From a virus, in IMG/VR virus record IMGVR_UViG_3300044644_001314, positions 1 through 41,753 of that record: DNA of 41,753 nucleotides. One strand, written 5' to 3'. Below, piece after piece: positions 27,047 to 31,310 of the stretch. How positions within the stretch are numbered: the first letter of the stretch is position 1; every line of letters starts with the position of its first letter. The position numbers and the translations under genes are program-made. The notes under the pieces were generated by a model. That model ran no database searches, was not told where the DNA came from, and saw only the letters and a list, made by a program, of their open reading frames with translations.

Positions 27047-27054
27047 TACATTTG
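27047..27054 (+). promoter_or_regulatory. Candidate promoter -7 element TACATTTG
   Basis: TACATTTG matches TAnnTTTG, with a TTTG 16 nt upstream (27027-27030), slightly closer than the usual 17-23. The only thing downstream before the terminator is about 75 nt without a gene, so any transcript would be a small RNA. It could also be chance in AT-rich DNA. Confidence 0.35.
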
Positions 27055-27084
27055 ATAATTCATAATAGTTTAGTTTGGTTAATT

Positions 27085-27134
27085 AATCCCCTATCGTAGT
27101 TTGTGGTGTACGCAGACATAGATAGGGGATTTTT
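27085..27134. terminator. Terminator between the convergent late and early genes
   Basis: AATCCCCTATC (27085-27095) pairs perfectly over 11 bp with 27121-27131, and the + strand continues with T residues to 27134. The loop holds inner pairs (GTTTG/CAGAC or CGTA/TACG), and outer AT pairs (27081-27087 with 27136-27142) extend the stem. It lies in the only gap between the last late gene and the last early gene, so it can stop both. The - strand side has a weak T-tract. Confidence 0.85.
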
Positions 27135-30549: not shown

Positions 30550-31194
30550 TTATTTTTGTGTTGAAAATCTTTCTAACTTATCAGCTCTACTAATAAATTC
30601 TAAAGTTAAATATTGATGATTAGTTTCTTTGTGATACTTATCGTTATAAGCATTTTGAATTGCATTAGCAATATCTTCTTTTGTAAAGTTTTCTTTTAAC
30701 CTTGCCTTAAATTGACTTTTAGCTTTTTCAGGAACTACTTTACATTTTTTACCTGTTACTTCATTAAAAAAATCTAAAAGCACAGACCAATTTATTGGAT
30801 CTATATTTTCTTTTTTAATTATTATATTATTAGTAGTTGTTAGTTGTTTGTTGTTTGTTTGTTGTTCGTTTGTTACTTTATTTTCTAAATTTTGGTAATC
30901 ATCATATTTTACAATAGTTAGCAAAGTATTTTTGTTTGTTGAATTTTTTACAATTTCATTAGTTTTTTCTAACTTGCTTAATGATGTTCTTATATTCTGA
31001 AAAGTCAAATTTAATTCATTAGATAAAGTTTCAATACTTGTTATAAAACTTCCTCTTTTTATTAAAGTTCCTTGCCAATTTTTATCTTCCCAATTTGCTT
31101 TTAAAAGACAATGTATAAATAATATTTTAGTGTTATTATCATTATACCATTCCCAATCTAAAAGTTTTCGATGTAATGAAATATATCCACTCAT
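30550..31194 (-). CDS. Replisome organiser / replication initiator with Phg_2220_C domain
   Basis: A 214-aa protein. Residues 1-85 resemble the winged-helix N-terminus of phage replisome organisers (GYISLHRKLLDWEWYNDNN and LIKRGSFITSIETLSNELNL). Residues about 85-130 form a Thr/Asn/Gln-rich linker. Residues about 135-205 (LLDFFNEVTGKKCKV ... YLTLEFISRADKLERF) match the conserved phage C-terminal domain Phg_2220_C (PF09524). Proteins of this build bind the phage origin and bring in the helicase. A repeat run encoding the linker (30834-30875) could be the origin. The gene is preceded by a hairpin leader (31207-31310). Confidence 0.8.
   Translation of the reverse strand: MSGYISLHRKLLDWEWYNDNNTKILFIHCLLKANWEDKNWQGTLIKRGSFITSIETLSNELNLTFQNIRTSLSKLEKTNEIVKNSTNKNTLLTIVKYDDYQNLENKVTNEQQTNNKQLTTTNNIIIKKENIDPINWSVLLDFFNEVTGKKCKVVPEKAKSQFKARLKENFTKEDIANAIQNAYNDKYHKETNHQYLTLEFISRADKLERFSTQK
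30834..30875. repeat. Low-complexity TTGTTTG repeats inside the initiator gene (origin candidate)
   Basis: About 40 bp read GTTGTTAG TTGTTTGTTGTTTG and similar, with units of TTGTTTG/GTTCGTTTG. They encode the Asn/Gln/Thr linker of the replisome organiser. Phage origins often lie in the linker of the initiator gene as iterons. The repeats are seen; the origin function is inference, because a low-complexity linker alone would give a similar pattern. Confidence 0.35.
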
Positions 31195-31206
31195 AATTTT
31201 TAAATT

Positions 31207-31310
31207 AAAAAATCCTTTAGGTTTCGGTGTGGTGGCACTTACTCCCTAAAGGATAAATAAATAATTCTTTAATGTAATGAACCCACCAGAACATTACAAA
31301 TGCAAATATA
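31207..31310 (-). promoter_or_regulatory. Two-hairpin leader with promoter-like site and attenuator-like terminator
   Basis: On the - strand: TATATTTG (31310-31303, matching TAnnTTTG), then hairpin 1 with TGTAATG/CATTACA (31298-31292 and 31279-31273) and a 12-nt loop. A second hairpin follows, ATCCTTTAGG/CCTAAAGGAT (31254-31245 and 31221-31212), with a 23-nt loop and six T residues (31212-31207). The two loops contain TGGTGG (31288-31283) and CCACCA (31235-31230), perfectly complementary over 6 bp, so the loops can pair. The structure ends 12 nt before the replisome organiser start. It could attenuate that gene or be a small RNA ended by its own terminator. No TTG element was found at the right distance. 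Confidence 0.65.

Follow-up and report, generated by a model that had tools for sequence, protein, structure and literature searches.

A two-hairpin leader RNA with covarying kissing loops and a predicted terminator ahead of phage replication genes

The window analysed here is the whole stretch of 41,753 nucleotides of viral DNA (IMG/VR record IMGVR_UViG_3300044644_001314). On its minus strand, the gap between a gene for a DUF3127 protein and a gene for a replisome-organiser-like protein holds a promoter element, two hairpins (P1 and P2) and a T-tract, which ends 12 nt before the start codon ATG at 31194 (Table 1). The promoter, both hairpins, the match between their loops, the T-tail and the 12-nt gap had been named in the initial annotation and are exact to the base on this strand. 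That description lacked the internal loop and the 3-bp inner stem of P2, which make CCACCA the whole apical loop; judged by its bases, the internal loop reads like a sarcin-ricin/loop-E motif. The two kissing strands are exactly complementary, four of the six pairs being G-C. The terminator proposed before the initiator gene is also supported, in that the G/C-containing 10-bp stem is immediately followed by T6, and the relatives carry T4-T9. RNAfold returns both hairpins with an energy of -24.7 kcal/mol (z -2.39), and 2 of 200 shuffled sequences fold as well.

Table 1. Coordinates of the element and its flanking genes in the window
Feature	Position	Strand	Remarks
Upstream gene, DUF3127 (single-strand-binding-like), 123 aa	31332..31703	-	Pfam PF11325, E 1.3e-22
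TAnnTTTG-type -7 promoter element TATATTTG, Bacteroidota-type	31310-31303	-	Fixed in TATATTTG-like form among relatives
P1, 5' hairpin, 7 bp: TGTAATG 31298-31292 / CATTACA 31279-31273	31273..31298	-	RNAfold; covaries in relatives
Kissing strand 1, TGGTGG, within the P1 loop	31283..31288	-	Sequence; covariation in relatives
A/T-rich linker containing AAAGAATTATT	31255..31272	-	Resembles the consensus linker of other members
P2, terminator hairpin, lower stem 10 bp: ATCCTTTAGG 31254-31245 / CCTAAAGGAT 31221-31212	31212..31254	-
P2 internal loop, GAGUA / GAAA	31244-31240 / 31225-31222	-
P2 inner stem, 3 bp, GTG/CAC	31238-31236 / 31229-31227	-
Kissing strand 2, CCACCA, entire 6-nt apical loop of P2	31230..31235	-
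Six-T tract	31212-31207	-	Predicted 3' end of the released RNA
Downstream gene, replisome-organiser-like protein, 214 aa	30550..31194	-	Weak Phg_2220_C match (Pfam E 1.7e-5, below gathering score); N-terminal relatives

A loose scan for a hairpin, a terminator and a loop match, in which the promoter was not required, returned 3 units in the window vs. 15 in four shuffled windows, and the loop match in the window taken alone is not above chance. The locus could then be an ordinary promoter with an insulating terminator, as the shortness of the kiss (6 bp) and its near-identity in the closest relatives would also allow. However, one relative (L219) has a 7-bp kiss, ATGGTGG/CCACCAT, on a different P1 stem, the loops covary throughout the family, and the family covariance model finds 31207-31310 in the window. 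The window element is beyond chance because the relatives keep the complement while the loop sequence changes, and an accidental match is very improbable.

In the nearest relatives of the downstream gene (L005-L008), the element is nearly unchanged, even where the upstream sequence has been replaced. The initial annotation had staked its proposal on conservation in related phages, and the stems and the loop complement are both kept there. DNA similarity finds the element in Flavobacterium isolate phages of Muminvirus, Lillamyvirus and Ficleduovirus (FCV-1, FCOV). A homologue covering most of the query is present in 115 sequenced Flavobacterium phage records, which makes the start, the end, the termination efficiency and loop swaps directly measurable. 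The loop pairs of the isolates are each perfectly complementary (GTGGAACG/CGTTCCAC, GTGAGACG/CGTCTCAC, GTGAGAAG/CTTCTCAC and GTAGAGAG/CTCTCTAC), and phage FL-1 has the pair CGTCTCAC/GTGAGACG. The same design with matching but different loops occurs in scores of related phages. A fixed-code pattern, TCTCAC...GTGAGA, located the element in at least 120 loci of viral contigs, that is, in all 120 matches listed, among which the match length is sharply 75-82 nt though about 49-105 nt was allowed. Relatives from viral contigs carry no host labels, and their promoter type and isolate relatives point to Bacteroidota hosts. A strict DNA pattern, which matches 43 of the 120 viral loci listed, had no match in 257 Gb of bacterial genomes, and a covariance model search of ~796 Bacteroidota genomes found the element in one; both searches used strict filters with a low expected count, so that their result is no proof of a lytic-only distribution.

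The loop-loop match was analysed in a set assembled with the loops ignored, comprising all units of the fetched loci in which an intrinsic terminator follows a TAnnTTTG, reduced to 91 clusters. The upstream segment matches its own terminator loop at 17 or more hydrogen bonds in 25 of the 91 clusters vs. 3.1 with loops swapped between clusters, the maximum over 20,000 permutations being 13. Alignment of 65 elements, with 20-odd different loop sequences, gave the consensus TATATTTG - P1 - linker AAAGAAATTATTA - P2 - T-run. With the loop-loop helix counted as a pseudoknot, 90.6% of the cells are paired vs. 70.8% after shuffling, and 288 cells show double changes vs. 87.5±8.2; none of 500 shuffles reaches any of the measures. 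The compensatory changes cover the loop-loop helix, both lower stems and the inner stem. The kiss helix is paired in 98.5% of its cells, and sliding the partners by 1-3 columns reduces pairing to 30-49%. Among positions outside the search pattern, which escape its bias, one in the kiss flank (CG20/GC19/TA12/AT8, all four pair types) is paired in 59/59 cases and the next position in 54/59, while three inner-stem pairs are paired in 59/59. RNAalifold, run unguided, picks the loop-loop helix. Above the lower stem of P2, 41 elements have the motif UGAA/GGA, 14 have a looser form, TGA/GA, and 9 have AGUA/GAA.

G·U pairs exceed A·C pairs (66 vs. 24, p 1e-5), indicating that selection acts on the sense-strand RNA and not on the DNA. 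This asymmetry bears on a DNA-level reading, in which a repressor or an initiator would bind the inverted repeats, or the hairpins would belong to a single-stranded origin near the initiator gene. The adjoining replication genes and the nature of the loop match, which is an inverted repeat, agree with such a site. However, the repeats sit in hairpin loops that covary, the T-tract and the promoter keep a fixed orientation, and copies within one phage differ in sequence, which would be hard for one binding protein. A DNA-level feature is thus strongly disfavoured, with a very small probability.

A covariance model built without the window had 31207-31310 as its only window match (29.7 bits, E 0.067 over 371 kb), a weak match with P1 out of register that rests mostly on the promoter, the linker and the terminator base. 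Out of sample, covariance model R1 found a locus in a Flavobacteriaceae assembly (L329, E 9.7e-6) whose loops, AGCCTTCGAC/GTCGAAGGCT, are unlike the training codes and match over 10 nt. Pairs could not be counted in the window-type (GT...) subfamily, whose MAFFT alignment was too ragged, so that the formal covariation comes from the larger subfamily, complemented by the swap test across the whole set. Independent tests are provided by this swap test, by the free pairs of the kiss flank and the inner stem, by the excess of G·U over A·C and by L329. The two-hairpin kissing-loop structure is well supported by these comparisons, which bear out the kissing complex suggested in the initial annotation. 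The fold, its strand, the geometry of promoter, terminator and gene, and the family can be taken as demonstrated.

That no known family has such an arrangement, as first annotated, agrees with Rfam 15, which gave no match at the gathering threshold and only chance matches at relaxed E values. No description of the element was found in the literature searched, which did not extend to the full text of a survey of 224 candidate RNAs from 2017. The skipping-rope RNA (RF02924) is similar in being an RNA family of ~80 nt, terminator-ended and partly phage-borne; its covariance model matches 0 of 9 tested records at E<=10. The element of the window, with TAnnTTTG, P1, the loop-loop complement, a terminator and a start codon within ~50 nt, belongs to a family of structured RNAs that appears to be large, unlisted and carried by Bacteroidota phages. 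Gene regulation in these phages is poorly known, and the family heads replication operons and homing-endonuclease genes. Its kissing loops, which covary and form part of terminators, also make up a clean natural library.

The statistics on genomic context come from elements chosen by kiss score and are thus descriptive of the family, not a test of it. The base of P1 lies at a median of 5 nt downstream of the promoter element in the relatives, at about +1, and the median linker is 13 nt. From the end of the terminator stem to the ATG, the median distance is 21 nt (quartiles 15-25) in 98 non-redundant elements, and none of the 98 has a second TAnnTTTG between P2 and the ATG. Thus, no transcript can arrive at the gene without passing through P2, which would make P2 an attenuator by geometry. 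Genes following the element encode replication initiators, DnaD-like loaders, DUF6291 proteins, helicases, primases and methylases, as well as ParB-like proteins, NUMOD4-HNH endonucleases and small ORFs; they are usually replication, helicase or HNH genes. In Muminvirus and Lillamyvirus, the element likewise lies 3' of the DUF3127 gene and ahead of replication genes. Several phages (FCV-1, L006, L146, L157, L217 and L219) have two elements of different code. Those of FCV-1 are GTAGAGAG and GTAGTGC, the latter copy, read by eye, preceding its NUMOD4-HNH gene.

The interpretation we lean towards, as rather probable, is a cis-acting leader RNA in which an intrinsic terminator locked by kissing loops attenuates the downstream gene and releases an RNA of ~95 nt. 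Judging by the promoter spacing, transcription would start at the base of P1, which would form first, followed by P2. Through the 6-10-bp helix that covariation reveals, the loop of P1 pairs with the apical loop of P2. This fold is compatible with P2, an unusually long-looped intrinsic terminator, and probably stabilises it; plausibly, the kiss makes the terminator work by folding the long upper part of P2. Most polymerases would be expected to stop at the T-tract, about 15-25 nt ahead of the start codon, releasing the RNA with a structured 5' end and keeping the downstream gene low or delayed. The gene may be expressed upon read-through, whether by intrinsic leak, by phage antitermination or by a factor acting against the kiss or the internal loop. 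The loop sequence could drift freely provided that both sides change together.

The initial annotation had also suggested a switch between terminator states. However, comparison of own and swapped partners for all segment pairs in 89 elements recovered only the P1/P1, kiss/kiss and P2/P2 pairings. The linker, the UTR and the arms have no coevolving alternative partners in the 89 elements, nor was any antiterminator or start-codon pairing found. The kiss has no competing fold in these elements and is thus a lock that can coexist with the terminator, not an antiterminator switch. The RNA switch was rejected by this all-segment swap test, as was an attenuator with an antiterminator, since no pair beyond P1, the kiss and P2 exceeds the swapped controls. 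Most regulated attenuators do have an alternative fold, and its absence here counts against an attenuator. So do the tight packing of phage genes, which would in part bring any unit close to the next start codon, and the pooled upstream profile of the relatives, in which a -33 promoter element is not clear.

The main rival is a trans-acting phage small RNA of ~95 nt that has a promoter and a terminator of its own. The kissing fold would then be the functional shape (a protein-binding RNA, a decoy or a sponge), and the downstream gene would be a bystander expressed by upstream read-through. Such an RNA would account for P1 at the predicted start, for the one stable fold that has no switching alternative, for the conserved non-Watson-Crick internal loops (UGAA/GGA or AGUA/GAA) and for the similar elements that can precede different genes. 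It sits poorly with the narrow distribution of start-codon distances, the functional bias of the downstream genes and the several copies per phage with differing loops, and we consider it unlikely, if still a serious contender. The initial annotation had left attenuation of the initiator gene and a short RNA side by side; the geometry favours the attenuator.

Leader systems of other phages and of plasmids offer analogies only. The phage P4 CI RNA and the P1/P7 C4 RNA are short and control termination or expression of the phage replication or antirepressor operon; they act by base pairing, and their sequence differs between immunity groups. These RNAs act in trans on separate leader sites, whereas the partners of the phage element lie ~45 nt apart in one RNA and the loops complement each other within it; moreover, the element comes with no demonstrated lysogeny module and no Rfam match. 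The attenuators of pT181-type plasmids likewise have a terminator in the leader of a replication initiator gene, but their action depends on an antisense RNA and on an alternative pre-emptor fold; for the phage element, neither an excess of antisense promoters nor an alternative fold was found. Antisense TAnnTTTG occurs in 11 of 91 cases vs. 13.6 expected, and none of these antisense sites lies in 31000-31310 of the window. Control by an antisense RNA of the pT181 or ColE1 type was rejected on these TAnnTTTG counts, which show no excess of counter-transcript promoters.

P2 could also hold a sensor, in which the internal loop and the kiss bind a metabolite or a phage or host protein and thereby set termination, as in compact riboswitches. 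The specific non-canonical internal loops kept above the terminator stem would suit this role, and a terminator-embedded aptamer has a precedent in the HMP-PP (thiS motif) riboswitch, in which the RNA forms part of an intrinsic terminator immediately 5' of the gene that it controls (PMC6478431). This riboswitch is the nearest functional precedent; it is compact like the element, the loop of its terminator is conserved, and it may contain a pseudoknot (PMC6478431). However, it has mutually exclusive folds and serves thiamin genes in bacteria, whereas the phage element has a single fold, a loop-loop kiss and a variable sequence. Membership of the HMP-PP class was rejected, as the downstream genes are replication or HNH genes rather than thiamin genes and no P1 fold competes with the terminator. 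Against any sensor stand the lack of mutually exclusive pairing in the 89 elements, the downstream genes, which do not form one metabolic pathway, and the internal loop, which differs between members; a sensor is improbable.

The loops might further act as a self-recognition code, in which released leaders pair with the nascent leaders of genomes of the same code and raise termination as the phage copy number grows. This idea is speculative and has a low probability; if true, phages that do without a repressor would time their replication and exclude superinfection by means of RNA, using many orthogonal codes.

Several further observations were made around the elements. Small proteins of 57-75 aa, often with a 'DKSTAIKFAKTLRTEINK'-like ending, are repeatedly the first ORF after the element (L139, L151, L154, L030, L133 and others). 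The same element heads both operons in L018 and L019, where an apparent HNH-like gene in L019 replaces the 61-aa ORF of L018. Annotated hypothetical ORFs overlap the RNA element in L002 (2966-3061, snusmum91_gp041) and L154 (2499-2642, HWC92_gp42) and are probably spurious, the RNA element explaining such annotations.

A second leader RNA lies in the window ahead of a NUMOD4-HNH gene (34172-34062, minus strand), with a TATATTTG promoter and without a T-tract. Within the loop of its CCCGACA/TGTCGGG stem, GCTTATTCGTT pairs with AACGGATAAGC (11 bp, one G-U). This leader is 92% conserved in L139 (882-1000), in which the inner pairs CGCA/TGCG become TGCA/TGTA. At 27047-27131, convergent genes are separated by a strong hairpin (AATCCCCTATC/GATAGGGGATT) that has T-runs on each strand and is probably a bidirectional terminator. 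In four apparently non-Bacteroidota phage loci with sigma-70-like promoters (L037:3857, L033 ~3850, L058 ~3890 and L029 ~1390), a 5' segment, identified by eye, complements the terminator loop just before a replisome-organiser homologue, a possible convergent use of the same design. The pairing in L037, the sole one of the four also picked up by the scan, is GCGACCTTGC/GCAAGGTCGC and spans 10 bp.
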